Source of the DNA: Nocardia sp.
Lineage (GTDB): Bacteria; Actinomycetota; Actinomycetes; Mycobacteriales; Mycobacteriaceae
Direction of reading: 5' to 3'
DNA length: 12,132 bases
NCBI GenBank assembly: GCA_013361595.1
Contig: JABFXT010000103.1
Span: forward strand, 1-12,132
The position numbers and the translations under genes are program-made. Below are positions 1 through 12,132 of the stretch, in pieces (position 1 is the stretch's first letter; every line of letters starts with the position of its first letter). The notes under the pieces were generated by a model. That model saw only the letters and a list, made by a program, of their open reading frames with translations, had not been told where the DNA came from and did not search any database.

Positions 1-108
1 CTCGAGACTCGCGCTTCGCGCATGCGCTTCGAGGCCTGAACGGCGAGACGGGCCTCAACCCTTTGAGGTGTCTCGTAGAACTCGACGCATGCGGGTTGCG
101 GTGGCATT

Positions 109-124
109 CGATGCGATCGCATCG
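109..124. repeat. 16-bp perfect palindrome in the left-edge non-coding stretch
   Basis: CGATGCGATCGCATCG reads the same on both strands. It lies in the 212 bases beyond the 3' end of the reductase gene, where I see no supportable gene. The first 39 bases could be the tail of a reading frame ending in TGA at 37-39, but 12 codons are not enough to call. A second, 10-bp palindrome (GCGCATGCGC, 18-27) is nearby. Seen directly; an operator role is only a possibility because the gene to the left is outside the window. Confidence 0.4.
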
Positions 125-212
125 CTCACGGTGCGGGTGACCGGCCGTGATCCACCGGCGTCTTCGAGGTCCGAGCACGGAAAACCCGGTTTGCGCTGGA
201 ACTCGAAGGTGG

Positions 213-1238
213 CTACCGCGCTCCGTGGCCGGCCGGAACGACCTCTGCCGGGAGCGGTGGGGGCGGGGGTGTGCCGTCGCCGAAGGGGCGTCCGCCGAGG
301 GTTTCGCGGCCGTGGGGGGTGAGCCAGTTGGCGAGGTCGGGGCCCTTGGGTACCACCTGGGTCGGGTTGATGTCGGTGTGGACCTTGTAGTAGTGGTCCT
401 TGATCTGCGTGAAGTCGATCGTGTCGCCGAATCCGGGGGTTGCGAAGAGGTCCCGGGCGTAGGCCCACAGGACGGGCATTTCGCTGAGTTTGCTGCGATT
501 GCATTTGAAGTGGCCGTGGTAGACCGGGTCGAACCTGGCCAGGGTGGTGAACAGCCGGATATCGGCTTCGGTGATGGTGTCGCCGACGAGGTACCGCTGT
601 CCGGTCAGGCGGTCCGACAACCAGTCCAGGGCGGTGAAGAGCCGATCGTAGGCGGCGTCGTAGGCGTCCTGGGCCCCGGCGAAACCGCAGCGGTAGACGC
701 CGTTGTTCACCTCGCGGAAGACGCGGGCGTTCACCTCGTCGATCTCGGCGCGCAGGGCCTCGGGGTACAGGTCCGGTGCGCCTTCGCGGTGGTACTCGGT
801 CCATTCGAGCGAGAAGTCGAGGGTGATCTGCGGGTAGTCGTTGGTGACGACCTGTCCGGTCGGTACGTCCACGACGGCCGGGACGGTGATACCGCGCGGG
901 TAGTCGGGGAAGCGGGCGAGGTAGGCGTCGCGCAGGCGGGGGATCTTCAGCACCGGATCGATCCCGCCCGGGTCCAGGTCGAAGGTCCAGCTGAGTTTGT
1001 CGTGGGTCGGCCCGCACAGACCCAGCGAGATCACGGATTCCAGGCCCAGCAGGCGGCGCGCGATCAGGGTGCGATTGGCCCACGGGCAGGCGCGGGCGGC
1101 GACCAGCCGGTATCGGCCCGGTTCGACCGGGTAGCCGTCGCGGCCGTCGGCGGTGATCCGGGTGGTGATGTAGTTGGTGTCGCGTTTGAATTCGCCCGGT
1201 TCGACGTAGGTGCCCTGTGCGGTTTCCGAATCGGTCAT
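213..1238 (-). CDS. Glutathionyl-hydroquinone reductase-like protein (Xi-class GST, YqjG/ECM4 family)
   Basis: The 341-residue cytosolic protein has an N-terminal thioredoxin-like GST domain with the Xi-class CPWA motif at residues 51-54 (Cys51 is the expected nucleophile). The all-helical C-terminal GST domain contains VGDTITEADIRLF. The tail carries HYYKVHTDINPTQVVPKGP, very like E. coli YqjG. Family members reduce S-thiolated hydroquinones through a mixed disulfide at the Cys. Mycolate actinobacteria generally use mycothiol instead of glutathione, so the natural thiol here is uncertain (inference). I chose ATG at 1238 over the in-frame GTG at 1265 because the family-like sequence begins after it and the longer form would crowd the divergent promoter; neither start has a clear Shine-Dalgarno. 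The stop is TAG at 213-215. The gene is divergent from the enoyl-CoA hydratase, with 47 bases between the two start codons. Confidence 0.93.
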   Translation of the reverse strand: MTDSETAQGTYVEPGEFKRDTNYITTRITADGRDGYPVEPGRYRLVAARACPWANRTLIARRLLGLESVISLGLCGPTHDKLSWTFDLDPGGIDPVLKIPRLRDAYLARFPDYPRGITVPAVVDVPTGQVVTNDYPQITLDFSLEWTEYHREGAPDLYPEALRAEIDEVNARVFREVNNGVYRCGFAGAQDAYDAAYDRLFTALDWLSDRLTGQRYLVGDTITEADIRLFTTLARFDPVYHGHFKCNRSKLSEMPVLWAYARDLFATPGFGDTIDFTQIKDHYYKVHTDINPTQVVPKGPDLANWLTPHGRETLGGRPFGDGTPPPPPLPAEVVPAGHGAR

Positions 1239-1271
1239 GACACCAGTCTCGCAGGGCCGGTCCACTGGCCG

Positions 1272-1277
1272 TAGGGT
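1272..1277 (+). promoter_or_regulatory. Candidate -10 (TAGGGT) for a near-leaderless enoyl-CoA hydratase transcript
   Basis: TAGGGT fits the actinobacterial -10 pattern TANNNT and lies 8 bases before the ATG at 1286. No Shine-Dalgarno sequence precedes that ATG. Transcription would then start within a base or two of the start codon. No convincing -35 is seen. This is inference from spacing. Confidence 0.4.
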
Positions 1278-1285
1278 CCTCGTAC

Positions 1286-2098
1286 ATGGCCAGTGGACAC
1301 AATACGAGCGATACCGGACCCACCCGGCTGGAGCGGGCGGTCACCGAACGTGGTGCCGAAGTCGCCACTCTCACGCTGGCGAGCCCGCCCCTGAACCTGT
1401 TCGATCAGGCCATGTTCGACGCGCTGGTCGCCGATATCGCCGAGTTGTCGGCACGGCCGCCGCGGGCCTTGCTGATCAGGGCCGAGGGCAAGGTGGTCTC
1501 GGGCGGGGTCGATGTACACACCTTCGACGGGCTCACCGCCGCCCAGGGCGCGCAGTTGTGGCAGGACCTGTTCGCCCGGATCGGTCACCCGATCGAGGCG
1601 CTGCCCTGCCCGGTGCTGTTCGCGGCGCACGGCCTCACCCTCACCGCCGCGTTCGAGATCGCGCTGGCGTGTGATCTGATCCTGGCCGCGCCGAAGGCGA
1701 AGTTCGGGCTGGTGGAGATCGTGGTGGGGTTGACCCCGTCGATGGGCGGGCCGCAGCGGCTGGCCGAGCGGGCCGGATCCGGCCGGGCCCGCGAACTGGT
1801 GATGACCGGCGATCTGTACGACGCGCAGACTCTGCGCGAATGGGGTGTGGTGAATCAGATCCACGAGGATCTGGACAGTGCGGCCGTCGCGCTGGCCCAC
1901 CGGCTGGCCGACGGGCCCACGCGCGCGCACGCCGCGACCAAACGCATTGTGGAGGCGTGGCGGTCGGGCGGGGTGGCGCACGCGGACGCGGTGACGCCGC
2001 AGGTGTCCGGTGCGTTGTTCGAGACCGAGGATCTGCCGCAGGCGGTGCGTAGTTTCCTGGAGCTGGGTCCGGGCAAGGCGACCTTCCGCGGGCGCTGA
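1286..2098 (+). CDS. Enoyl-CoA hydratase/isomerase (crotonase) family protein
   Basis: The 270-residue protein has full crotonase length. The first oxyanion-hole segment is SGGVDVHTF (72-80). The second is HGLTLTAAFEIALACD (115-130), where most hydratases have a glycine triplet before the glutamate. Both catalytic acids are present: Glu124 (FEIALACD) and Glu144 (FGLVEIVVG), equivalent to rat mitochondrial Glu144 and Glu164. MGGPQRLAERAG (153-164) follows as usual. Hydration of 2-enoyl-CoA or double-bond isomerisation are both possible; substrate cannot be read from sequence. The gene is followed by a GC-rich hairpin and then, after about 150 bases, by the truncated acyl-CoA synthetase-like gene on the same strand, so a shared role in acyl-CoA metabolism is plausible but unproven. 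The ATG at 1286 is the first start and fits the -10 just upstream. Confidence 0.92.
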   Translation: MASGHNTSDTGPTRLERAVTERGAEVATLTLASPPLNLFDQAMFDALVADIAELSARPPRALLIRAEGKVVSGGVDVHTFDGLTAAQGAQLWQDLFARIGHPIEALPCPVLFAAHGLTLTAAFEIALACDLILAAPKAKFGLVEIVVGLTPSMGGPQRLAERAGSGRARELVMTGDLYDAQTLREWGVVNQIHEDLDSAAVALAHRLADGPTRAHAATKRIVEAWRSGGVAHADAVTPQVSGALFETEDLPQAVRSFLELGPGKATFRGR

Positions 2099-2109
2099 TA
2101 CGAGGTGGG

Positions 2110-2126
2110 CGCCGCCCGGTGCGGCG
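2110..2126 (+). terminator. GC-rich hairpin after the enoyl-CoA hydratase gene
   Basis: CGCCGC / GCGGCG can pair with a 5-base loop, 11 bases past the stop codon. A competing pairing with the GGCCGGGCGC that follows would enlarge the structure. There is no U-run, as is common for actinobacterial terminators. Its position between two same-strand genes that appear to have separate promoters supports termination. Confidence 0.45.
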
Positions 2127-2193
2127 GCCGGGCGCGATACGGATGACGATTCGATAATCGATTCCGGCGATTCGCCGACTCCGCATCCGGATC

Positions 2194-2213
2194 TGTGATC
2201 TGGGTCATATAGT
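2194..2213 (+). promoter_or_regulatory. CRP/GlxR-like operator overlapping a TATAGT -10 upstream of the ligase-like gene
   Basis: TGTGATCTGGGTCATA (2194-2209) matches the CRP/GlxR consensus TGTGA-N6-TCACA with one mismatch in the right arm. A further TCACA at 2213-2217 also mirrors the left arm with 14 bases between. TATAGT at 2208-2213 is the best sigma-70-like -10 in this gap and overlaps the right arm; no good -35 is visible. Transcription would start near 2220, placing the site centre around -18, a position usually associated with repression. Consensus is established knowledge; binding here is inference. Confidence 0.5.
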
Positions 2214-2249
2214 CACAGGTGCCTGACTGTTCGACTGTGCGGAGGTCCG

Positions 2250-3611
2250 ATGCAAGCCGGTACGACCACGATCATCGGGCCCGCGGCCGGGCCGTCCGCG
2301 CCCGGGGAACGCACCTGCGGTCCCCCCGCCGGCCGGCCGGACCTGGTGGAATTCCATATCGTCGACGCCGGCACCACAGCGCCGTTGTCCCGGGGCGCGG
2401 ACGGCATTCTGCGCTACGGAAATCTCAGTCCCGCCCTCACCGAACTGCTCGATCTGCAGGTCCACGCGTTCTCCAACCGGGAAGCGGTGGTCGAGGTCGG
2501 CGGTGGCCGGCTCACCTATCGGGAACTGTGGCATTCGGCGTCGCGGGTGGCCGGCGGATTGCAGGAACACGGGATCGGCTACGGCGACCGGGTCGCCGTG
2601 CACATGCCGCCCGGGGTGCGCTGGGTTCAGGCGTTCCTCGGGGCGCTGCTCAGCGGTGCGGTGCCGGTACTGGTCCATCACGGGCTCTCCGGCGAACTGG
2701 CCGATCGGGTCATCGCCGACAGCGATGCCGATTTCGTACTGGGCGCGCCCGACCGTGGCTGCGGTGCCACCCGTAGCGATTCGCGCTGGGTCACCGATCT
2801 GCCCGATGCCGCCGCCTTCATCGACGACGGCGCCGCGCTCAACGATCTGGCGCTGCTCTGCTACACCAGCGGCGCCGGGGCGGGCCGGGTTCCCACCGGG
2901 GTCGAGCTCACCAACGAGAATCTGCTCTCGGCCATCCGGTCCATGGTCGCCGCCCTGGATCTGCCGACCGACGGTATGCGGAACCTGGTGTTGCAGCCGC
3001 TCGCCTACGCCAGCGGCTGTGTCGACCAGCTGCTGCCGACGTTCGCCGTGGGCGGGACCGTCGTGCTGGCCCAGGACCAGGCCGGGGTCGCGGCGGCCGT
3101 CGCCACCGAAGGCGTGGACACGGTCGCGGCCAATACCCGCATTCTCGGTGGGTTGCTGCCGGAACTGGCCGCGGACCGGAGCAATGGGTTGTGTACGGAT
3201 CGGGTGATCCGGGTCAGCATCGCCGGCCATCGCGCCGAAACGGCGGACGCCGGTGATCCGGGCCCGGCCCTCGCCCGCGATCTCGGCGAAGTCTTCCCGT
3301 CCGCCCGGCAGTGGTCGGTGTGGGGTGCCACCGAGACCAGCGGTATCGGGCTCGCGTTGGGGCCGACGGCCGGTCCGGGCGCGGACGGTGACGGTACTGT
3401 GCTGGGTTTTCCGTTCGGCGGTACCGAACTCGCGCTGTGCGGGCCGCGGGCCGCGGCGGGGCACGGCGAACTACTGTGCCGCGGCCCGAACGTGACCAGG
3501 CGATACTGGAACGATCCGCAGCGCACCGCCGACCGTTTCACCGGTAGCTGGTTCCATACCGGCGACCATGTGAGCATCGGCGCCGACGGTCTGGTCCGGC
3601 GCAGCGCCTGA
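2250..3611 (+). CDS. C-terminally truncated adenylate-forming enzyme (acyl-CoA synthetase-like)
   Basis: The 453-residue protein is an ANL-superfamily N-terminal domain. Residues 65-165 resemble the usual start (LTYRELWHSASRVAGGLQ, GDRVAVHMPPG). The A3 P-loop at 205-218 reads YTSGAGAGRVPTGV, two residues longer than the canonical YTSGTTGxPKGV and lacking the lysine. A5 is WGATETSG (358-365). A6 covers GELLCRGPNVTRRYW (406-420). A7 is WFHTGD with Asp439. The protein then ends at VRRSA, exactly where the hinge (A8) should begin, so the ~100-residue C-terminal domain with the A10 lysine is absent. The reading frame is intact to that point and the next bases belong to the convergent phosphatase gene. 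ATG at 2250 follows GGAGG (2241-2245) by four bases. Residues 1-50 are a Gly/Pro-rich lead of unknown role. Whether it still adenylates anything is doubtful. Confidence 0.88.
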   Translation: MQAGTTTIIGPAAGPSAPGERTCGPPAGRPDLVEFHIVDAGTTAPLSRGADGILRYGNLSPALTELLDLQVHAFSNREAVVEVGGGRLTYRELWHSASRVAGGLQEHGIGYGDRVAVHMPPGVRWVQAFLGALLSGAVPVLVHHGLSGELADRVIADSDADFVLGAPDRGCGATRSDSRWVTDLPDAAAFIDDGAALNDLALLCYTSGAGAGRVPTGVELTNENLLSAIRSMVAALDLPTDGMRNLVLQPLAYASGCVDQLLPTFAVGGTVVLAQDQAGVAAAVATEGVDTVAANTRILGGLLPELAADRSNGLCTDRVIRVSIAGHRAETADAGDPGPALARDLGEVFPSARQWSVWGATETSGIGLALGPTAGPGADGDGTVLGFPFGGTELALCGPRAAAGHGELLCRGPNVTRRYWNDPQRTADRFTGSWFHTGDHVSIGADGLVRRSA

Positions 3612-3619
3612 GTCAGGCG
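3605..3619. terminator. 15-base palindrome holding both stop codons of the convergent pair
   Basis: CGCCTGA-G-TCAGGCG is a perfect inverted repeat around base 3612. The ligase-like gene's TGA and the phosphatase gene's TGA (TCA on this strand) are its mirror-image inner parts. Flanking CTGGTC (3591-3596) and GACCAG (3619-3624) could extend the stem with a bulge. A shared bidirectional terminator is the natural reading, though there is no U-run and the innermost bases cannot all pair in RNA. Confidence 0.45.
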
Positions 3620-4371
3620 ACCAGGCGGTCCCGCAGGCGGTCGCGCAGATCGGGAGTGAGCCCCACCGCGGTCAGGTACGCGTCGAAGTCGCCGTGCAGT
3701 TCGATACCGGACTCCAGCCCGGCCCGCAGGTACTCCTCACGTACCTCGAGGACGGCTTGGGGCAGGTCGGCGCCCAGTTCGTCTTTCAGCGAGGTGCGCA
3801 GTTCGGCGACGGCCTCGTTGCTCAGCAGGTAATCGCCGAGGATCTCCGGCTCGATGACGCCGACCGCCCGCAGCAGGGTGGCGATGGTCCAGCCGGTGCG
3901 GTCTTTACCGGCCGCGCAGTGCACGAGGACCGCGCCCCGGTCGGCGACGATCGCCTCGGCGAGCGCAGTGATGGCGGCGTGCGCCTCGGGCCGCGCCGGG
4001 AAGTTGCGGTACACGTCCATCATGTAGGCCAGCGCGGCACCCGGGGCGTCCTGGCGGCCGGCGCCCGCCTCGTGCGGCGGCGCGGTGACCGTACCGTCGT
4101 CGAAGGGGGTGATGCTGAGGCGGACCCCGGGAGGCAGCCGATCGGCACCGGCGCGTTCGATCTCCCGGTGCCCGCGCAGATCGTGGACCGCGCCCACACC
4201 GAGTTCCCGGAGGGTGGCGTGCCCGGCGTCGTCGAGCCGGCTGAGCTGGGCCGAGCGGAGCAGGACTCCGTGCCGTGTCGTCCCGCCACCGCTGATGCGC
4301 AATCCGCCGAGATCTCGAAAGTTGAAGGTGCCGCTGATCCGGAGATGCCCGGCGAGGGGAGAGCTTGTCAC
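3613..4371 (-). CDS. Tyrosine/phosphoinositide phosphatase, PtpB-like (Y_phosphatase3 family)
   Basis: The 252-residue protein has the signature P-loop HCAAGKDRTG at 151-160. Cys152 is the nucleophile and Arg158 the phosphate-binding residue of CX5R; the lysine and aspartate inside the loop are typical of the Mycobacterium tuberculosis PtpB group, which hydrolyses phosphotyrosine, phosphoserine and phosphoinositides. The N-terminal block GTFNFRDLGGL (14-24) followed by LLRSAQLSRL is the other family hallmark. No signal peptide or membrane segment is visible; M. tuberculosis PtpB is exported without a classical signal, so location is open. The start is GTG at 4371 with no Shine-Dalgarno but with TAGCCT six bases upstream, suggesting a leaderless transcript. 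The gene converges on the ligase-like gene with a single base between stops and is divergent from the TetR-like gene. Its physiological substrate cannot be told from context. Confidence 0.93.
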   Translation of the reverse strand: MTSSPLAGHLRISGTFNFRDLGGLRISGGGTTRHGVLLRSAQLSRLDDAGHATLRELGVGAVHDLRGHREIERAGADRLPPGVRLSITPFDDGTVTAPPHEAGAGRQDAPGAALAYMMDVYRNFPARPEAHAAITALAEAIVADRGAVLVHCAAGKDRTGWTIATLLRAVGVIEPEILGDYLLSNEAVAELRTSLKDELGADLPQAVLEVREEYLRAGLESGIELHGDFDAYLTAVGLTPDLRDRLRDRLVA

Positions 4372-4377
4372 CGCATC

Positions 4378-4383
4378 AGGCTA
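4378..4383 (-). promoter_or_regulatory. Candidate -10 (TAGCCT) of a leaderless phosphatase transcript
   Basis: On the minus strand TAGCCT is followed by exactly six bases and then the GTG start codon at 4371. TANNNT-N6-RTG is the characteristic layout of leaderless promoters in mycobacteria and relatives. An out-of-frame ATG lies within the spacer. No clear -35 is seen. Confidence 0.5.
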
Positions 4384-4525
4384 ACCGGCGTCCCACGGTG
4401 CGGGTTGTGTGATCCCGCACAGCCGTCGAAGATCGGCCCGATGTGGTCGTAGACTTGCCGTCGGTCTCTGCCATGAGGCGCCAGGGCGGTGTGATCAGGT
4501 TTCGCGGTGCCGGTCCGGGAGCGCG

Positions 4526-4541
4526 CGCAACCGAGGTTGCG
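4526..4541. promoter_or_regulatory. 16-base inverted repeat, operator candidate
   Basis: CGCAACC-GA-GGTTGCG has perfect 7-base arms around a two-base centre. The size and symmetry are typical for a dimeric regulator such as a TetR or MarR protein. It lies between two divergent genes, about 155 bases from the phosphatase start. Seen directly; the binding protein is unknown. Confidence 0.4.
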
Positions 4542-4602
4542 GGGTATGTGAATCGGTCCCGAAGGGGCCGTCAAAACAGTCTTCGGGTATGAGTTTCCCG
4601 TT

Positions 4603-4637
4603 AGAACTGTTCTCAAACCCCGAAAACCTTCTAATAT
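4603..4637 (+). promoter_or_regulatory. Candidate promoter with TAATAT -10 and a palindrome over the -35 position
   Basis: TAATAT (4632-4637) resembles a sigma-70 -10. At the expected -35 distance the sequence is a poor match (GTTCTC), and that position is covered by the palindrome AGAAC-T-GTTCT (4603-4613). An additional AACAGT at 4575-4580 mirrors ACTGTT at 4606-4611. A weak -35 covered by an operator is consistent with a regulated promoter for the TetR-like gene, but this is inference. Confidence 0.35.
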
Positions 4638-4756
4638 TGAGAAGACGGATCGTTTAGGCTGTTACTTCCCGACCAATGCCTTCTCGATCCGGCCGGCCAC
4701 TTCGGTGCCGAGTATTCGGCCCGGTGTGTGCGAGTTGTTTGCCGAGGGAGCTTGCG

Positions 4757-5236
4757 TTGGGCGTACGTGGAGAAATAGCGGAGGTCCGGATCCGGTCGGC
4801 CGTGCGTGAAGCGGTCGATCATGCAGACGCGGTACTGGATATCGCCGGATTACGGGCGTTGCGAGTGTTGCTGCACGCTGGAGTGAGTGCCTATTGGCCG
4901 CTGGTCAAGTCGACGCCGGAGCAGCAGATCCACGCATATTCGAAGACCGTGCAGTCTCTGTGCCGGCACTGGGATTCCGGTCCGGACTACGTGCCCGACC
5001 CGGTGATCTCCGAACGGCAGCGTGCCCAGCAGCGCGATGTGATCGAGTGGCTCGAACTGTGCGCCGCTCGGTCCGGTACCCGCTGGATCGAGCCGGTCGA
5101 ATCGGTGGCGTCCTACGTGATCATGGTGGTGCAGGGTTCGGTGCTGCGCTGGCTGGCCGATTGCGACGACGAGGTGGTCCTGGTGGCCTTCGACGATCTG
5201 GTGTCCAATCTGGTCACCCGGGCGATCGACGCCTGA
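4757..5236 (+). CDS. TetR-like ligand-binding domain protein lacking a helix-turn-helix
   Basis: From the TTG at 4757 the product is 159 residues, all predicted helical in character. VREAVDHADAVLDIAGLRAL, the aromatic-rich middle (AYWPLV, IHAYSKTVQSLCRHW) and the end, VVQGSVLRWLADCDDEVVL then FDDLVSNLVTRAID, resemble the C-terminal ligand and dimer domain of TetR regulators. The ~50-residue N-terminal DNA-binding domain is missing and is not encoded upstream in any frame. I chose TTG 4757 because GAGGGAG (4744-4750) sits six bases before it; an ATG at 4676 would add 27 Cys/Arg/Pro-rich residues without a Shine-Dalgarno. The family call rests on pattern recognition and is moderate. It is followed after 43 bases by the PLP enzyme gene, so the two are probably cotranscribed. 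It could act as a ligand-sensing partner of another regulator or be a decayed regulator. Confidence 0.65.
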   Translation: MGVRGEIAEVRIRSAVREAVDHADAVLDIAGLRALRVLLHAGVSAYWPLVKSTPEQQIHAYSKTVQSLCRHWDSGPDYVPDPVISERQRAQQRDVIEWLELCAARSGTRWIEPVESVASYVIMVVQGSVLRWLADCDDEVVLVAFDDLVSNLVTRAIDA

Positions 5237-5251
5237 CACCCGCCCGTAGAG

Positions 5252-5267
5252 CTGGACGTTCGACCAG
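5252..5267. repeat. 16-base near-palindrome between the TetR-like and PLP-enzyme genes
   Basis: CTGGACGTTCGACCAG pairs with itself except for one A-A mismatch. GTTCGA also occurs twice in tandem here (5258-5263 and 5267-5272). It sits in the 43-base gap before the PLP-enzyme start and could be an operator or an RNA hairpin hindering access to the start codon. Function is not known. Confidence 0.3.
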
Positions 5268-5279
5268 TTCGATGGTTGA

Positions 5280-6467
5280 GTGGTCGGGGTGAGCGCGACC
5301 TCGCCGATTGCCCCCCTGCACGCGGCCACCGCCGATCTCGACCCGCCGCTGGCCGCCGTCGACCTCTCGGTCCTGCGTGCCAATGCCGCGGACCTGGTCC
5401 GCCGGGCCGCCGGGCGGCCCATCCGGGTGGCCAGCAAATCGGTGCGCTGCCGCGCCGTACTCGAGGAAGTACTCGGCACCGGACTGACCGCCGCCGGCGG
5501 TTTCGCCGGTCTCATGTCGTATTCGCTCGCCGAGGCGATCTGGCTGGTCCGCCGGGGTGCCCGGGATGTGCTGCTCGGCTATCCCAGCGCCGATCGCGCG
5601 GCGTTGGCCGAGCTGGGCGCCGATCCCGTACTGGCCGAGTCGATCACGTTGATGGTCGACGATATCGCGCAGTTGGCGCTGATCCGGACCGCGGTCGGCA
5701 CGGCCACCGTGCGGCCCCGCATCTGCCTGGACGTGGACGCGTCGCTGCGGATCGGGCCCGTGCATCTGGGCGTGCGCCGGTCACCGATCCGGACTCCGGA
5801 GCAGGCCGCCGAACTGGCCCGGACGGCCGCCTCCCGTGGCTTCCGGGTGGTCGGCCTGATGACCTACGAGGCGCAGATAGCCGGGCTCCCGGATACCTCG
5901 TTGCCGGTGCGGTTGGTGAAGAAGGCATCCGCCCGGGAGATCGAGCGGCGCCGGGCGGCAGTGCTGGACGCGGTGCGATCGGTGGCCGGGCCGCTCGAGA
6001 TCGTCAACAGCGGTGGCACCGGTTCCGTCGAATTGTCCGCCGCGGCAGCCGGAGTCACCGAGATCACCGCGGGATCGGGCCTGTACGTGCCGACGCTGTT
6101 CGACGACTATCGCTCCTTTCGGCCAAGGCCCGCACTATATTTCGCGCTTCCGGTACTGCGCCGGCCCGCGGCGGGAATTGCCACGGTGTTCGCCGGTGGA
6201 TATATCGCGTCCGGGCCCACCGGTGCCTCCCGTGTTCCGAAACCTGTGTGGCCGAAGGGATTGCGGCTGCTGGGTACCGAAGGGGCGGGGGAGGTGCAGA
6301 CCCCGCTGTCCGGGGCCGCGGGACTCACGATCGGCGATCGGGTGTGGTTCCGGCACGCCAAGGCCGGTGAGCTGTGCGAACGGTTCGACCGGCTGTATCT
6401 GGTGGACGCCGACGGATCGCGTATCGAGGTGCCGACATATCGCGGTGAAGGGAAATGTTTCGGGTGA
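5280..6467 (+). CDS. Amino acid deaminase/aldolase-like PLP enzyme (alanine racemase fold, D-threonine aldolase/D-serine dehydratase-like)
   Basis: The 395-residue fold-type III PLP enzyme has its Schiff-base lysine in RVASKSVR (Lys53). An alanine-racemase-like barrel follows: YSLAEAIWLVRRGARDVLLGYP, LMVDDIAQL, RICLDVDASLRIG, and the phosphate-binding NSGGTGS near residue 245. The C-terminal beta domain has GDRVWFRHAKAGEL and ends with VPTYRGEGKCFG. In D-threonine aldolases and D-serine dehydratases the corresponding segment carries a His-x-Asp or His-x-Cys metal pair; here it is His359-Ala-Lys361, so the metal site appears absent. Cleavage or deamination of a D-hydroxy amino acid is the family expectation; the real substrate is unknown. 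Start codons GTG 5280 and GTG 5289 are both possible and neither has a Shine-Dalgarno. It follows the TetR-like gene closely and ends before a hairpin facing the large convergent gene. Confidence 0.88.
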   Translation: MVGVSATSPIAPLHAATADLDPPLAAVDLSVLRANAADLVRRAAGRPIRVASKSVRCRAVLEEVLGTGLTAAGGFAGLMSYSLAEAIWLVRRGARDVLLGYPSADRAALAELGADPVLAESITLMVDDIAQLALIRTAVGTATVRPRICLDVDASLRIGPVHLGVRRSPIRTPEQAAELARTAASRGFRVVGLMTYEAQIAGLPDTSLPVRLVKKASAREIERRRAAVLDAVRSVAGPLEIVNSGGTGSVELSAAAAGVTEITAGSGLYVPTLFDDYRSFRPRPALYFALPVLRRPAAGIATVFAGGYIASGPTGASRVPKPVWPKGLRLLGTEGAGEVQTPLSGAAGLTIGDRVWFRHAKAGELCERFDRLYLVDADGSRIEVPTYRGEGKCFG

Positions 6468-6479
6468 GGCCGGTCCGAT

Positions 6480-6497
6480 CCGGTACGGCAGTGCCGG
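6480..6497 (+). terminator. Terminator-like hairpin after the PLP-enzyme gene
   Basis: CCGGTAC-GGCA-GTGCCGG forms a 7-bp stem (one G-U) with a tetraloop, starting 13 bases past the stop codon. It is followed by a mixed A/T-rich stretch rather than a pure U-run. The 117-base gap separates two convergent genes, so termination is expected here. Confidence 0.55.
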
Positions 6498-6584
6498 GTA
6501 ATTCGATTCGATAATCGGCACCCCGGGTTATTTCATCGGACAGGCGCGAACTGTCTCGGCCGGTCCGGAAAAATCTTGATTACT

Positions 6585-9500
6585 TCAGTTATTTCCCAAC
6601 CGGATGAAGCGGGAGATATTCGACATTTCTTCCAATGATTCCGGAAGGAATTCGGTCAGCAGTGTCGAGCGCACGAACACCGCTCGGCGGCGGGCCCGGC
6701 CCACCGAATCGTGTACGAGGGCGGGAGACAGCAATGTCCCGACAGGTACGGGGGAGTCCTCGGGACTCGATGCCGCAAGCGAGACCAGCACCACCGCGGC
6801 CTCCCGTCCGCGCAGCAATTCCGGTGTGCCGACCAGCACCTCCTCGAACCGGGCCCGCGCCAGCAGCGTCCGGATCCGGCCGACCTGGGCGCGGTGCGGC
6901 GAGACCACGACGATATCGTGCGGCTGCAGCGGCCGGGGCCCGCCGCCGCCGTCCCAGCGCTGTCCCAGCAGGTTCCTGATCTGCTGCAGCACCTCGCGGG
7001 CCTCGGCGTCGGCGGCGGTGCTGTTGCCGTCGTGATCCACCAGCACCGTGGCGATCCCGGGTTCGACGGCGTCGCCGGGCCGGCCCGGTTCGGGTGCCGC
7101 TCGCAACCGGTCGTCGAAATAGAGGTGTGAGAGCGCGTCGCTCAGCACCGGATGCAGACGCCGGGTGAGGCCCAGGAAGTAGCCGTGCGCGGCGGGGAGC
7201 GTGCGGTGACCGCCCGCCGACCAGGTGAGCGCCGGGGTGTGTACCGGCTCCGGGTGCGGTCCCGGGTCGGGGTCGTACCGGGCGGCCGGATCGCCGGTGA
7301 GCAGCAGATTGCGGGCGCTCACCGAAACGGCGGCCGTGGTCGCCAGCGGGAAGGCGTTCGCATCCGCGATCACGAGCAGGTCCAGCGAATCGCGCGGAAT
7401 ACGTGCCGGATCGATGAAATCGGCGGGGTTACCACCCACCACACAGCCGCGGATCGCGTTCGCCAGGAACCGGGGACAGCGTTCGGGTTCGAGCACCAGC
7501 CATTCGGGTGCCACGGCCACCGCATCGCTCTTGGCGACCAGTTCGGGCAGCACGCCCGCCCGCACCACCGCGTCCAGCAGGTTCTCCACCGGCGCGGCCG
7601 TGGGCGCGACGACTCCGATACGCCAGCCGTTCTCGGCGACCAGCGCACCGAGCACATCGGCGAGGATGGCGGTGCGACCGGTCCCGGTCGGCGCCTCCAC
7701 GGCGAGACAGGAGTTGTCCAGATCGCGCAGCGCCGCGGTGATCGCGGCCCGCGGATCGTCCGCGGCCGGTGGCAGACCCGCGGCGGTGCGGAACCGGGGT
7801 GGACGGCGGGCGAGCAGGTCGAACAGCGCGGTGCCGGGGATCGCGGGCAATGTCACCAATAGTTGCCTGCCGATATCCTCGATGGCGTCCGCCGCGGCGA
7901 CCGGTGGGTCCGGCGGCGCGGGCACCAGCGCGACCGGCAGTTCACTGTGTGGTTCGGCTCCGGCGGCCAGAGTTTCCTCCAACCGCACGGTATCGGCGAG
8001 ATCCGCCTCCACCGAACAGCCGAGAACGGTAGCGGTTCCGCAGGTCCGAATGGCGCGGGGAGCGCGGGCCGCGGGTTCGTACACGACACGGACCGCGGTC
8101 CCCGGTGCCGGACTCGGCCCGGCGAGACGGCCGGTGAGCCGGAGGAAGCGGCGCACGGTATCGCCGGGGCCGATATGCCATTTCGTATCCACCGCCGCCG
8201 AATCGGCGACCATCACCCCCGGGTCGGCGGTCCATTCGCCGAGTGGATGGGTCAGCCGGTCGATATGTGCCCACCAGGCCAGCTGGTGTTCCCGGCGGTG
8301 ATAGCCGAGCAGCGCGGCAGTCGACTCCGCGACCCGGTACGGCTCCCCCGGGGCCGTGGGATCCGTGGTCGCCCGGCGGGCCGCGAACTCGGCCAGTGCG
8401 GCTTCGGTGGACGAGGGCTGGGCCGGCGGTGTCTCACGCAGCAGCCGGTCGAGCGTCTCGATCTGTCCGATGGGCGCCACGGCCTGCGGTGGGTTCGTAT
8501 GATCGCGCAGCCGGTCCGCGAGGCGCAGCACGGTAGCGGCGTCGGATCCGCCCGGCGGAGTATCGATCACGGCGGCGACCGCGGGCAATGCGTAGGTCTG
8601 GGTACCGGCGACGAAGGCACCCCGGAAGATCGGATGCAGGTCCACCGGCGTCCCGGTGCGCAGGAGTAGGTCCACGGTCTCCTCACCGCAGCCCAGGCGG
8701 GCGGCGGTGTGCAGCAGGAAAGTACGGGCCGCGCCGGTGTAGTGGTAGATGTGCAGATCGGGGTCGGCCAGCAGCGGTTCGGTGAGTGCGGCGAGGATAT
8801 CGGTGAAAGCGCGCCGCCCGGTGGCACGCAGCTCACGTCGCCGCTCCGGAGTGATCCGTGGGGGTTCGAGCGGGATCTCGCGGGTCAGGCGGACCGTATC
8901 GCGGGCCGCGATCTCGACCCGCAGCAGGCCCGGCCGGATTTCCGCCACCTGCAGGGCGAGATCGCCCGCAGTGGCGGGCGGCAGCATATCCAGCGCCGCC
9001 GCGTCGGCGGTGACGTACTCGCCACGGCCGGAATGCTCCTGCCGCAGCTGCACGACGGCCTGGGCGCGCAGGCGGGCCAGGATTCGCGGGGGTATCCCCG
9101 GCGGGGCCACCGTGCGGGTGGTGAGGCTGTCGATGGTGGCGACGCCCGCGGCGCGCAGCGCGGCCCGCGTGGGCAGGTCCATTCCCGCGACCAGCAGCAG
9201 ATCCCGCGCCTCGGCCCGGGCGGCCAGACAGGTGGGACAGCGCCGGCAGGCCCGGAAACGCGGGTCGCCCCACTGCACCGGCAGCAGTTCGCTGGAATGT
9301 TCGTCCAGGATCGCTGTCGTCCGGCGCCGCCGGGCCCGGTACACGGGCCGGGTGTCGGCGAGAGCGACCGTGTGGGTTCCGGTATCCGAATAGACAGACA
9401 GCCACGGGTCGACGCGGATCGACCGCTCCTCGAGCAGTGCCGCGGCGACGGTCATCCGCAGTACTGTCGCGACCGGTCCGGCTCCGCCCACACCGTGCAG

Positions 9501-9917
9501 GCGGATCCCGTCGCCGGTCCGGGTCATCAATTCGGTGTGCGCGAAGACTTCTCCGTCGAACACCACGGCATCGACCACGGCCGGGGCCCCGGCGGCGAGG
9601 GCGGCGAGGGTATCGGTGTGCGCGCCGGCGAGGGCGGGGAGCGGGACGGGCCGGGGGATCTCGATCAGCGAGCTCGCGTACCGCTGCCGGACGGCGCCGC
9701 GTACCCGGTCGAATTCCGCGGCGCCGGGCCCGTCGTGACCGGCTCCGGCCGGCTCGTATCCGGCGCCGCCGGGCCCGGCGGCAACCGTCCCCAGTTCGGC
9801 GTCGAGGGCACGGAGCAGCGCGAATTCGCAGTGCGCGGCGCGCACCAGATCCGCGGCGTCGTACACCACCCGATCACCGACAACGAACACCCACGGCCCT
9901 CCTGCGCCCAGTGACAT
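6585..9917 (-). CDS. TM0106-type RecB-like nuclease / RNase H-like / SF1 helicase fusion with degenerate catalytic motifs
   Basis: The 1,110-residue protein (numbered from ATG 9917) aligns throughout with TM0106-family nuclease-helicases. VVYDAADLVRAAHCEFALLR (18-37) opens the nuclease part; where active members have an Asp and a DTKLAR-like ExK region, this one reads AHTELMTR (126-133) and HGVGGAGPV. CRRCPTC (224-230) and LLVAGM precede a helix-hairpin-helix-like piece. The RNase H-like block contains IYHYTGAART (390-399). The helicase part has Walker A APTGTGRT (742-749, Arg for Lys), Walker B-equivalent LLVIADANAF (847-856, AD for DE), GDPAAR for GDPQQL (875-880), TRRLHP, LLRGRE for FQGQE and DSVGRAR for NVAVSRAQ. 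The frame is open with normal codon use, so the protein is maintained. From memory, its length and DeaD neighbour recall M. tuberculosis Rv1251c. GTG 9950 is an alternative start. A non-enzymatic nucleic-acid-binding role is my inference. Confidence 0.85.
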   Translation of the reverse strand: MSLGAGGPWVFVVGDRVVYDAADLVRAAHCEFALLRALDAELGTVAAGPGGAGYEPAGAGHDGPGAAEFDRVRGAVRQRYASSLIEIPRPVPLPALAGAHTDTLAALAAGAPAVVDAVVFDGEVFAHTELMTRTGDGIRLHGVGGAGPVATVLRMTVAAALLEERSIRVDPWLSVYSDTGTHTVALADTRPVYRARRRRTTAILDEHSSELLPVQWGDPRFRACRRCPTCLAARAEARDLLLVAGMDLPTRAALRAAGVATIDSLTTRTVAPPGIPPRILARLRAQAVVQLRQEHSGRGEYVTADAAALDMLPPATAGDLALQVAEIRPGLLRVEIAARDTVRLTREIPLEPPRITPERRRELRATGRRAFTDILAALTEPLLADPDLHIYHYTGAARTFLLHTAARLGCGEETVDLLLRTGTPVDLHPIFRGAFVAGTQTYALPAVAAVIDTPPGGSDAATVLRLADRLRDHTNPPQAVAPIGQIETLDRLLRETPPAQPSSTEAALAEFAARRATTDPTAPGEPYRVAESTAALLGYHRREHQLAWWAHIDRLTHPLGEWTADPGVMVADSAAVDTKWHIGPGDTVRRFLRLTGRLAGPSPAPGTAVRVVYEPAARAPRAIRTCGTATVLGCSVEADLADTVRLEETLAAGAEPHSELPVALVPAPPDPPVAAADAIEDIGRQLLVTLPAIPGTALFDLLARRPPRFRTAAGLPPAADDPRAAITAALRDLDNSCLAVEAPTGTGRTAILADVLGALVAENGWRIGVVAPTAAPVENLLDAVVRAGVLPELVAKSDAVAVAPEWLVLEPERCPRFLANAIRGCVVGGNPADFIDPARIPRDSLDLLVIADANAFPLATTAAVSVSARNLLLTGDPAARYDPDPGPHPEPVHTPALTWSAGGHRTLPAAHGYFLGLTRRLHPVLSDALSHLYFDDRLRAAPEPGRPGDAVEPGIATVLVDHDGNSTAADAEAREVLQQIRNLLGQRWDGGGGPRPLQPHDIVVVSPHRAQVGRIRTLLARARFEEVLVGTPELLRGREAAVVLVSLAASSPEDSPVPVGTLLSPALVHDSVGRARRRAVFVRSTLLTEFLPESLEEMSNISRFIRLGNN

Positions 9918-9931
9918 ACCGGCCGCCGCTG

Positions 9932-9977
9932 CGCGCGGACCGGACGACACACCGGCCGGCTTCTACGCGCGGACCGG
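9932..9977. repeat. Two 12-base direct repeats upstream of the helicase-fusion gene
   Basis: CGCGCGGACCGG occurs at 9932-9943 and again at 9966-9977, 34 bases apart start to start. The first copy is inside the upstream GTG-start alternative of the fusion gene and the second touches the deaD terminator stem. It may be a duplicated regulatory half-site or chance in GC-rich DNA. Confidence 0.3.
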
Positions 9978-10007
9978 TCGGGCCCACTGTAACCACCGGG
10001 CCCGACC
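9976..10007 (-). terminator. Strong hairpin between deaD and the helicase-fusion gene
   Basis: GGTCGGGCCC and GGGCCCGACC form a perfect 10-bp stem with a 12-base loop, beginning 20 bases past the deaD stop codon. This is the most stable simple hairpin seen in the window. No U-run follows on the minus strand. It would end or attenuate deaD transcription before the downstream gene. Confidence 0.65.
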
Positions 10008-10027
10008 TGGTGGAACGGGCCGTGGAT

Positions 10028-11830
10028 TCAGGAGCGCGGTTTCCGGCGATCCTGACGTTTCGGGCCCTCACGGCGGGGGCCGCGGCCGATCGCGCGATGT
10101 CCGGGCGGACCGGAATCGAGTTGCAGCTGGATGAGGACACCGCTGATCCTGGTGCGCCGCAACGCTTCCAGCGTTTCCGCCGGCAGATGCGCGGGCAATT
10201 CCACCAGGCTGTGGTCGGGCCGGATACTGATATGCCCGAAATCGCTACGGCGCAGACCGCCTTCGTTGGCAATGGCGCCGACGATCGCACCGGGTACCAC
10301 CCGATGCCGTTTACCCACGCTGATGCGGTAGGTGGCCAGTTCGGCATCGGTGGTGCGGTGCCGGGACGGGCCGCGGTTCGCGTCGAACCCGCCCTCCTCG
10401 AAACGACGTGGCGCGCGCTCCCGGCGCGGTCGCTCCACCGGCTCCGGCTCTGGTTCGAGGAAGAAGCTCTCGCCGTCCTGGGCGGCCACCGCCAGGGCGG
10501 CGGCGATATCGGCCAGCGGGGTGTTGTGCTCCTGCTCGTAGTCCTCGATCAACTTGCGGAACAGCGCGAGATTGTCGGAGCTGAGGTTCTCGGTGATGGC
10601 GTCGCCGAACTTCGCGACCCGCTGGGCGTTCACATCGTCGACGCTGGGCAACTGCATCTCGGTCAGCGGATGCCGGGTCGCGCGTTCGATGGATTTCAGC
10701 AGATGCCGTTCCCGGGGGGCGACGAACAGCAGGGCCTCACCGCTGCGGCCCGCGCGGCCGGTACGGCCGATCCGGTGCACGTAGGACTCGGTGTCGTGCG
10801 GGATGTCGTAGTTCACCACATGCGAGATCCGGTCCACGTCCAGGCCGCGGGCCGCGACATCGGTGGCGACCAGGATGTCGAGGGTGCCTGCTTTGAGCTG
10901 GCCGATGGTGCGCTCGCGCTGGGCCTGGGCGATATCGCCGTTGATGGCCGCGGCGGAGAAGCCGCGGGCGCGCAGTTTCTCGGCCAGCTCTTCGGTGGCC
11001 TGTTTGGTGCGCACGAAGATGATCATCGCCTCGAAGGACTCCACCTCGAGGATCCGGGTGAGCGCGTCGAGTTTGCGCTGATGCGAGACGAGCACCCAGC
11101 GCTGGGCGATATTGGTAGCGGTGCTGGTCTTGGCCTTGACCGTGATCTCGACCGGCTCGCGCAGATACTGCTTGGAGATCTTGCGGATCGCCGCGGGCAT
11201 GGTCGCCGAGAAGAGGGCCACCTGTTTATCGGCCGGGGTATCGGCGAGGATGCGCTCGACATCCTCCTGGAACCCCATCTTCAGCATCTCGTCGGCCTCG
11301 TCGAGTACCAGATAGCGCAGCTGCGACAGGTCCAGCGTGCCCTTCTCCAGGTGATCGATGACGCGACCGGGCGTCCCCACCACGACCTGCGCGCCACGCC
11401 GGAGACCGGACAGCTGCACACCGTAGCTCTGGCCGCCGTAGATCGGCAGCACATGAGTGCCCGGCATATGCGTCGCGTAGCGGCCGAACGCCTCGGCGAC
11501 CTGGATCGCCAGTTCCCGGGTAGGCGCGAGTACCAGCGCGGCGGGCGGTTTACCGGCGGGACGTTCCTGCAGCAGTCCCATCAGGATCGGGATGGCGAAG
11601 GCCGCGGTCTTACCGGTACCGGTCTGCGCCAAGCCCACCACATCCGCGCCTTCCAGCAGCGGAGGGATGGTCGCGGCCTGGATGGGAGAGGGCGATTCGT
11701 AGCCGACATCGGCGATGGCCGAAAGGATGCGGTCATCGATTCCGAGATCTGCGAAGGACGGTCCGGCGGTTTCGGGTTCGGTCTCGCCCGGGTTCTCGCC
11801 GAGGCTGTCGTCGCCCTCATTGGTGCTCAT
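10028..11830 (-). CDS. deaD: DEAD-box ATP-dependent RNA helicase, DeaD/CsdA type
   Basis: The 600-residue protein carries all DEAD-box motifs intact. The Q motif includes GYESPSPIQ. Motif I is AQTGTGKT (68-75), Ia PTRELAIQV, Ib TPGRV, II DEAD (177-180), III SAT (208-210), V ATDVAARGLDVDR and VI HRIGRTGR (352-359). After a linker with an acidic, Pro-rich part (EPEPEPVERP) comes a DbpA-type RNA-binding domain (about 499-574: YRISVGKRHRVVPGAIVGAI to SGVLIQL) and a Lys/Arg-rich tail. This layout is that of DeaD/CsdA, which unwinds structured RNA in ribosome assembly and RNA turnover, often in the cold. I chose ATG 11830 because the 46 extra residues of the open frame run across the divergent gene's start and do not look like the family. 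No Shine-Dalgarno is seen; TAAACT lies 8 bases upstream. A strong hairpin follows. Confidence 0.96.
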   Translation of the reverse strand: MSTNEGDDSLGENPGETEPETAGPSFADLGIDDRILSAIADVGYESPSPIQAATIPPLLEGADVVGLAQTGTGKTAAFAIPILMGLLQERPAGKPPAALVLAPTRELAIQVAEAFGRYATHMPGTHVLPIYGGQSYGVQLSGLRRGAQVVVGTPGRVIDHLEKGTLDLSQLRYLVLDEADEMLKMGFQEDVERILADTPADKQVALFSATMPAAIRKISKQYLREPVEITVKAKTSTATNIAQRWVLVSHQRKLDALTRILEVESFEAMIIFVRTKQATEELAEKLRARGFSAAAINGDIAQAQRERTIGQLKAGTLDILVATDVAARGLDVDRISHVVNYDIPHDTESYVHRIGRTGRAGRSGEALLFVAPRERHLLKSIERATRHPLTEMQLPSVDDVNAQRVAKFGDAITENLSSDNLALFRKLIEDYEQEHNTPLADIAAALAVAAQDGESFFLEPEPEPVERPRRERAPRRFEEGGFDANRGPSRHRTTDAELATYRISVGKRHRVVPGAIVGAIANEGGLRRSDFGHISIRPDHSLVELPAHLPAETLEALRRTRISGVLIQLQLDSGPPGHRAIGRGPRREGPKRQDRRKPRS

Positions 11831-11838
11831 TGACCAGG

Positions 11839-11844
11839 AGTTTA
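11839..11844 (-). promoter_or_regulatory. Candidate -10 (TAAACT) of a leaderless or near-leaderless deaD transcript
   Basis: On the minus strand TAAACT is followed by 8 bases and the ATG of deaD. It lies inside an inverted repeat, ACCAG-N7-CTGGT (11833-11849 on the plus strand), which could be an operator. No good -35 and no Shine-Dalgarno are visible. Confidence 0.45.
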
Positions 11845-11878
11845 CTGGTACGGCCTGGTTGTCCGGCCCACCGGGCCA

Positions 11879-11884
11879 TACGGT
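11879..11884 (+). promoter_or_regulatory. Candidate -10 (TACGGT) of a leaderless nitrilase-family transcript
   Basis: TACGGT is followed by exactly six bases and ATG 11891. Immediately upstream is a GGCCC-ACC-GGGCC inverted repeat (11865-11877). The whole divergent gap is only 60 bases, so this promoter and that of deaD are back to back. Confidence 0.45.
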
Positions 11885-11890
11885 GTCAGC

Positions 11891-12132
11891 ATGAACGCCG
11901 ACCCCGCCGACTTCCCGGACCCGCACCAGGGCGCGACGGTTCTCGCGGCCGTGCAGTTCGCACCGCATACCGATATCGACGCCAATCTCGCCGCGCTCAC
12001 CGCCGCGGTGCGGGCGGCGGCGGAACAGGGCGCGCGGATCGTGGTCGCTCCCGAGTACTCGATGTTCGCGCTCGGCCGGCTCGACGAGCGGGCGCTCGCG
12101 GCCGCGCAGCCGCTCGACGGTCCGTTCGTCTC
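11891..12132 (+). CDS. Carbon-nitrogen hydrolase (nitrilase superfamily), 5' part only
   Basis: Eighty codons are present before the window ends. VLAAVQFAPHTDIDANLAAL and the following helix are the standard first strand and helix of the CN-hydrolase fold. RIVVAPEYSMFALG contains Glu55, the first member of the Glu-Lys-Cys catalytic triad; the lysine and cysteine lie beyond the window. The phrase PLDGPFV matches the region preceding the next helix in this family. Members hydrolyse amides or nitriles, for example omega-amidases and N-carbamoyl hydrolases; the branch cannot be told from this fragment. The ATG at 11891 has no Shine-Dalgarno but has TACGGT six bases upstream. It is divergent from deaD, with no functional link evident. 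Confidence 0.85.
   Translation, partial: MNADPADFPDPHQGATVLAAVQFAPHTDIDANLAALTAAVRAAAEQGARIVVAPEYSMFALGRLDERALAAAQPLDGPFV

Follow-up and report, generated by a model that had tools for sequence, protein, structure and literature searches.

How does a nuclease-helicase gene come to keep a long, uninterrupted reading frame when the residues that would make its product an enzyme are gone? This question is raised by a gene on a 12,132 bp stretch of DNA from Nocardia sp. (GenBank assembly GCA_013361595.1, contig JABFXT010000103.1, positions 1 to 12,132), which we refer to as the window. The gene (positions 6585-9917, minus strand) encodes an apparently inactivated fusion of the TM0106 type, in which a RecB-like nuclease part is followed by an RNase H-like part, a linker and a UPF1-like helicase motor. 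A preliminary description of the locus had listed lost signature residues in each part and had proposed a selected pseudoenzyme. The results presented here support this as the best reading: the canonical motifs tested are absent throughout 150 Nocardia genomes, and the ratio of nonsynonymous to synonymous substitution rates (dN/dS) is far below 1. Judged from sequence comparison, the protein is probably a genus-wide pseudoenzyme that has been reused as a non-cutting, non-translocating clamp, scaffold or sensor of nucleic acids.

The frame runs without interruption from an ATG at position 9917 to a TGA ending at position 6585 and comprises 1,110 residues; its TM0106-type fusion architecture was borne out, and the gene is orthologous to intact fusions by sequence and by neighbour. 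Although the 1,110-residue frame is open, the gene probably starts at the GTG codon at 9890-9888, which would give a protein of 1,101 amino acids, because the sequence AGGAGG (9898-9903), a probable ribosome-binding site, lies 7 nt upstream, orthologues begin with MFVFGDR, and the database copy (P0002) is 1,101 amino acids long. The G+C content at the three codon positions is 0.777/0.554/0.829 for the fusion gene and 0.714/0.473/0.830 for the upstream gene deaD, and is thus alike at the third position. A promoter and terminator scan of positions 6300-10300 gave no predictions and was uninformative. The nearest named proteins, from Nocardia sp. NBC_01329 and N. jinanensis, are 85% identical. 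Several Nocardia orthologues carry the public name "bifunctional RecB family nuclease/DEAD/DEAH box helicase" despite the missing motifs.

To describe the motif states we used loci from 150 Nocardia genomes, all of which (150/150) contain the orthologue, and 80 named loci from outside the genus. One locus per genome was counted, the repeats L090, L120, L121 and L133 being dropped from the counts by alignment column. Five of the Nocardia frames are partial (511-824 residues, at or near contig ends) and lack the N-terminal motif positions, so that at most 145 are informative for the nuclease-type motifs. Candidate sister loci were ranked by similarity to the intact Aldersonia protein (L126), and the top 80 of 485 were kept. 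These are from Aldersonia, Antrihabitans, Rhodococcus, Prescottella, Rhodococcoides, Mycobacterium, Mycobacteroides, Mycolicibacterium and one Nanopelagicales metagenome-assembled genome, mostly from Rhodococcus and mycobacteria. Sister motif states were read by alignment in 67 genomes and by pattern in the 80 named loci, two partly overlapping sets (L283 is the L126 protein). All strings quoted in the preliminary description are present in the window protein and sit in the motif columns of the orthologues: AHTELMTR (from residue 126) at FxDFL/DTKLxR, IYHYTGAART (390) at HYAAYE, GTGRT (745) at GPPGTGKT, VIADAN (849) at VIDEAGQ, GDPAAR (875) at GDPQQLPQVSQ, RGRE (1036) at FQGR(Q/E) and GRAR (1073) at NVAxSR. 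The losses listed there were confirmed, but the list was incomplete, as DxEGD, YNxxDC and QLPQVSQ are gone as well.

The RecB-like part (PD-(D/E)XK, Cas4/Dna2 type; residues 1-300, positions 9018-9917 on the minus strand, as for all features of the gene given below) was delimited by alignment and by a partial TIGR03491 match to residues 156-293. This match scores 44.3 bits, below the cut-off of 97.45 bits, which is passed by the Aldersonia (178.3) and Mycobacterium leprae (174.6) proteins. At the former nuclease site (residues 126-145, positions 9483-9542), where orthologues have DFL...DTKLxR, the D...DxK site with its QxxxY is replaced by HTELM and LHG. The QLxAYA pattern was found in 0/150 Nocardia genomes versus 77/80 sister loci, and the DxK pattern in 1/150 versus 72/80. 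Inspection of the single Nocardia match (L214) revealed no DxK site, and the eight sister loci that missed the pattern carry DSK or DTK. The four cysteines of the iron-sulphur (Fe-S) type found in Cas4 and Dna2 are however retained: Cys30 (9828-9830), and Cys224, Cys227 and Cys230 in the sequence CRRCPTC (9228-9248), are putative counterparts that are invariant in an alignment of 66 Nocardia proteins (A1). We relied on this alignment for Cys30 because the 145-genome alignment is weak at the N-terminus, where 47-55 of its 145 Nocardia rows are gapped. The CxxCxxC pattern occurs in 144/150 Nocardia and 80/80 sister loci, and five of the six Nocardia misses are partial frames. The four cysteines are putative Fe-S ligands, by analogy with Cas4, AddB and Dna2.

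The RNase H-like part spans residues 301-480 (positions 8478-9017). Here a piece of about 40 residues is absent from the displayed Nocardia alignment rows around residues 455-463 (8529-8555), the position of YNxxDC in orthologues. DxEGD is missing from its site at residues 320-328 (8934-8960), and the Glu of HYAxYE is gone from IYHYTGAART (residues 390-399, 8721-8750). By pattern, DxEGD and YNxxDC are each found in 0/150 Nocardia genomes versus 80/80 sister loci, and HYAxYE in 0/150 versus 79/80. Of the acidic set DxE...E...D...YNxxD that characterizes RNase_H_2 (PF13482), the window protein has retained one acid, D426, and it gave no match to this family at an E value of 0.1; the Aldersonia protein scores 65.9 bits and also matches AAA_11, AAA_12 and PD-(D/E)XK models.

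The helicase motor is altered as well. The window protein matches AAA_12 (32.5 bits, cut-off 27) over lobe 2A, lobe 1A being placed by alignment alone, and scores 34.9 bits against TIGR00376, far below the cut-off of 348.9. Of the set of Walker A Lys, Walker B DE, motif III GDxxQL and motif VI Arg that characterizes the UPF1/IGHMBP2 type, it has the motif VI Arg but none of the other three in canonical form. In the Walker A region (APTGTGRT, residues 742-749, 7671-7694) the glycines of the P-loop persist, and Lys is replaced by Arg. This substitution, pointed out in the preliminary description, is present in the window but atypical of the genus: by alignment column 127 of 145 Nocardia genomes have Lys and 18 have Arg, while by pattern G-K-T was found in 112/150 Nocardia and 80/80 sister loci and G-R-T in 18/150 and 0/80, respectively. 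In the Walker B region (VIADAN, residues 849-854, 7356-7373), where AD stands for DE, the first acid is replaced by Ala (134 genomes), Val (8) or Pro (3), and the Glu position is Asp in 145/145. The sequence GDPAAR (residues 875-880, 7278-7295) retains GD of motif III but has lost QQLPQVSQ; motif V has RG for QG (RGRE, residues 1036-1039, 6801-6812, from alignment and pattern counts); and in motif VI (GRAR, residues 1073-1076, 6690-6701) NVAxSR is gone while Arg1074 is retained. The GD of motif III, the Gln of motif IV and the Arg of motif VI are each conserved in 145/145 Nocardia genomes. Conversely, [DE]EAGQ of Walker B (80/80 sister loci), GDPxQLPQ (79/80) and NVAxSR (80/80) were each found in 0/150. 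The patterns written for the Nocardia versions of Walker B and motif VI also match 18/80 and 4/80 sister loci, and these two patterns are therefore not specific.

Neighbouring genes and phylogeny bear on the origin of the losses. A PLP (pyridoxal phosphate) alanine-racemase-like gene (5280-6467, plus strand; PF01168), convergent with the fusion gene, is a neighbour shared with intact sister genes, being present in 32/33 Nocardia stretches and 8/14 sister stretches (counts that include the window, omit the repeats L134, L138 and L139, and represent genome G060 by L136). In a tree of 60 proteins (midpoint root, quick method) the 31 Nocardia rows form one clade, with an SH-aLRT value of 100 and a stem of 0.66 changes per column. 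That the Nocardia gene would be a paralogue of the intact enzyme instead of its orthologue is unlikely in view of the common convergent neighbour and the single clade. Because Nocardia forms a single clade on a long stem, the motif loss appears to be ancestral rather than due to recent decay; in line with this, the pattern of loss is genus-wide and not a defect of one copy.

The dN/dS comparison across Nocardia orthologues that the preliminary description had proposed as a check gave values well away from 1. With YN00, close Nocardia pairs gave 0.031-0.135 in 25 of 27 cases (two without a value), and close sister pairs 0.026-0.107 in 21 of 24 (three without a value). With NG86, all values obtained by part in eight pairs were below 1 (0.04-0.50); the YN00 and NG86 pairs share genomes and are not independent. 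Comparison of the window with L031 and L032 by YN00 yielded 0.108 and 0.131 for the fusion gene; the corresponding values were 0.068 and 0.058 for its racemase-like neighbour and, for deaD, 0.022 and 0.017. Purifying selection on the fusion gene is strong, though below that on its neighbours in the clade of the window. The protein is thus a homologue of presumed enzymes that has lost its catalytic residues and has been retained by selection (150/150 genomes, dN/dS 0.031-0.135). These are two of the features of a pseudoenzyme; the third, absence of catalytic activity, is predicted.

What has been retained differs between the parts. Sets of 141 Nocardia and 146 sister sequences were reduced to 69 and 75, respectively, by an identity threshold of 85% and compared over the 999 columns filled in both. 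The numbers of columns conserved at 90% or more in Nocardia and sisters, respectively, were 42 and 50 for the RecB-like part, 19 and 64 for the RNase H-like part, 65 and 28 for the linker preceding the motor (residues 481-700, 7818-8477), 91 and 82 for motor lobe 1A, and 65 and 56 for lobe 2A. The mean modal frequency overall was 0.66 in Nocardia and 0.65 in the sisters, though the sister set covers more taxa. The only clean switch, with each residue at 90% or more, is Glu to Asp at Walker B position 852. Judged by column conservation, the former nuclease pockets are drifting and the altered motor pocket is held.

These results can be combined into the following model. The RecB-like site, the RNase H-like site, the Walker B Asp and Glu, QLPQ of motif III and NVAxS of motif VI have been lost from the chromosomal fusion, apparently in the Nocardia ancestor, and the comparison shows that the gene has stayed in place under purifying selection. 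The fold is likely to be retained, and nucleic acid is probably bound by the RecA-like lobes, the linker and the nuclease-like part, which the cysteines would stabilise. With neither cutting nor translocation, the protein would act as a clamp, scaffold or sensor. Most Nocardia copies, having the P-loop Lys and the motif VI Arg, may bind nucleotide while hydrolysing it slightly or not at all, and the clade of the window would have been further altered by the change of the P-loop Lys to Arg. We also raise, tentatively, the stronger idea that the ancestor converted a DNA-processing enzyme with three active centres into a non-catalytic, possibly nucleotide-gated clamp in one evolutionary stretch, after which the protein became universal in the genus.

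Several observations weigh against the pseudoenzyme reading or limit it. The invariance of the Walker B Asp and the motif VI Arg implies that the motor pocket is altered yet constrained, which would fit residual ATPase activity too. In the clade of the window the YN00 dN/dS values of the fusion gene (0.108-0.135) exceed those of deaD several-fold and amount to one to two times those of the racemase-like neighbour; together with the NG86 value of 0.50 in one comparison this indicates a partial relaxation of constraint. The RNase H-like part may be hardly more than a spacer, and the ranking by which the 80 sister loci were chosen could omit a degenerate orthologue outside Nocardia. The first of these points is the basis of an alternative in which the nuclease-type sites are dead but the motor, through slow ATP hydrolysis or hydrolysis in an altered geometry, still works as a translocase or remodeller. 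We regard this as fairly unlikely. The Walker B Asp, motif III GD, motif IV Gln and motif VI Arg, each in 145/145 genomes, and the P-loop Lys in 127/145 speak for it, as does the fact that the motor columns are no less conserved than in the sisters; but the first Walker B acid is Ala, Val or Pro in all 145 genomes, QLPQ and NVAxSR are found in none of the 150, and the clade of the window also lacks the P-loop Lys. Extremely improbable, on the other hand, is a functionless gene that is either in decay or the product of faulty sequencing or assembly. The raised dN/dS of the window clade and the disappearance of most of the conserved columns from the RNase H-like part would fit decay. Against this stand the presence of the gene in 150/150 genomes, which refutes an artefact, the same losses throughout, the low dN/dS values, and a conservation of motor and linker that equals or exceeds that of the sisters; recent decay or sequencing error was rejected on these grounds.

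The gene directly upstream offers a further explanation. deaD (10028-11968, minus strand), encoding an RNA helicase with Pfam matches DEAD, Helicase_C, DeaD_dimer and DbpA, precedes the fusion gene on the same strand in 31 of the 33 Nocardia stretches with sufficient flank, the two genes being separated by about 80-300 bp, whereas it is near the sister gene in 3 of 14 stretches, each time on the opposite strand and 1.1-3.0 kb away. Strand and spacing suggest that the two genes may be co-transcribed in those 31 Nocardia loci, and the protein could then be a regulatory or structural partner of DeaD that acts on RNA, as the preliminary description had considered. However, the 33 stretches are biased toward close relatives of the window, and adjacency by itself is no proof of interaction. 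Moreover, in the two deepest-branching of the 31 Nocardia tree rows (L135 and L137, from genomes G263 and G291) the motifs are already gone and an adjacent deaD is absent. The linkage therefore probably arose after the loss, unless the adjacency was lost there later, and it is unlikely to be the original reason for it. Overall we consider a DeaD partnership distinctly unlikely, and retain as the preferred reading a pseudoenzyme that handles nucleic acids without catalysis.

An active paralogue in the same genome had been suggested as a possible partner. A protein search of the window's own genome (78% complete) yielded no full-length active paralogue, but this search also missed L062 (G000:C729:16521-18455), a TM0106-type paralogue without helicase that was found by a family-model search (TIGR03491, 287 bits). 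Its RNase H-like acids are present (DLE, YNEDD), and NHK takes the place of D[TA]K at the RecB site, as in all 12 displayed rows. L062 is thus a paralogue whose RNase H-like site is intact, but as its type was found in 112/121 family genomes it is no Nocardia-specific partner. The frame following L062 resembles htpG by eye. Other AAA_12 proteins are encoded elsewhere in some Nocardia genomes, including one in the window's own (G000:C895), and differ between genomes. Another genome of the family (G034) has two full-length TM0106-type fusions, L015 and L066, of which L066 is a distant copy whose motifs are canonical where its piece covers them. With respect to defence, the window protein gave weak PADLOC matches, confined to the helicase part (27.9 and 24.1 bits). 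The Aldersonia protein matches MkoA over its helicase part with 134.3 bits and PLuB_AAA with 58.9 bits, the latter under the cut-off. The MkoA match hints at a possible defence role for the intact enzyme; a Pfam scan of six neighbouring frames showed no genes of a defence system. Two of the other frames in the window deserve mention. The 439-amino-acid frame at 55-1374 (minus strand; codon-position G+C 0.83/0.66/0.52), which has no Pfam match, is probably a shadow frame rather than a gene. The 252-amino-acid frame at 3694-4452 (plus strand) also lacks a Pfam match, and a relative of it adjoins the locus in the six Nocardia stretches compared (6/6) and in one sister stretch (L126).

How does the Nocardia protein compare with known systems? 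The closest are the intact TM0106-type fusions (TIGR03491 with PF13482 and PF13086/PF13087) of Rhodococcus, Aldersonia, Antrihabitans, Mycobacterium and others, which are direct orthologues with the same architecture and, given the family they belong to, presumably enzymes. They differ in having the large RNase H-like piece missing from Nocardia, and in seven catalytic patterns found in 77 to 80 of 80 sister loci and in 0/150 Nocardia genomes. The motor aligns with IGHMBP2/UPF1-family helicases of superfamily 1B (TIGR00376, PF13087) across both RecA-like lobes but is far under the TIGR00376 cut-off and has changed catalytic motifs. Other cases of reuse are analogies. RecC is reported to contain a nuclease-like domain without catalytic features, which makes up a hoop for single-stranded DNA (PMC1185551). 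As in our case such a domain would be kept for DNA handling; RecC, however, is a homologue of RecB within a known complex, whereas the Nocardia protein is of the TM0106/UPF1-like type. In AddB and RecC inactivated helicase domains recognise Chi, as described in another paper (PMC4824097), so that an inactivated superfamily 1 fold has been kept for binding DNA. AddB is described there as UvrD-like, whereas a profile of eight intact orthologues of the Nocardia protein finds SMUBP-2, DNA2 and UPF1 as the nearest solved structures. Finally, TP1 of the virus TTV1 is reported to be a Cas4 nuclease that was inactivated and now serves as a nucleocapsid protein (PMC4625639). It likewise has a RecB-like fold that lost its catalytic residues and was reused for nucleic-acid binding, but it is a viral fragment without an Fe-S cluster, whereas the Nocardia protein is chromosomally encoded, has the full length of the fusion and keeps the four cysteines. 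Our literature search, which used a limited set of terms and left out most subscription papers, found no study of the TM0106/TIGR03491 fusion family. Rv1251c, presumably the equivalent of the mycobacterial fusion genes, occurs in gene lists in two papers, one of these being a STRING list centred on recombination genes.

Matches to the gene, including weak and partial ones, were obtained in 211 of 401 genomes of the family, and the gene is universal in Nocardia (52/52 in this search) versus patchy elsewhere (159/349 with any match); in the order, 62 of 150 genomes searched gave matches. M. leprae (L326) has an intact orthologue, with a full open frame and canonical motifs, in a reduced genome. 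In genome G052 of the same family the orthologue is apparently in pieces with an internal stop, which indicates that members of the family can lose the intact enzyme. The loss of the catalytic motifs is limited to one genus among those examined, and sister genera carry intact orthologues at the corresponding locus. It therefore constitutes a natural experiment in which a nuclease-helicase became a non-enzymatic protein, with 150 Nocardia genomes to show which features were retained. The nuclease and helicase labels attached to Nocardia proteins without the motifs call for caution with automatic names. If the clamp did originate in one evolutionary stretch, its history would parallel that of RecC in a bacterial single-chain protein whose intact sister orthologues are available for comparison. 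The same comparison offers a route to the function of the little-studied intact enzyme, including that of the mycobacteria.

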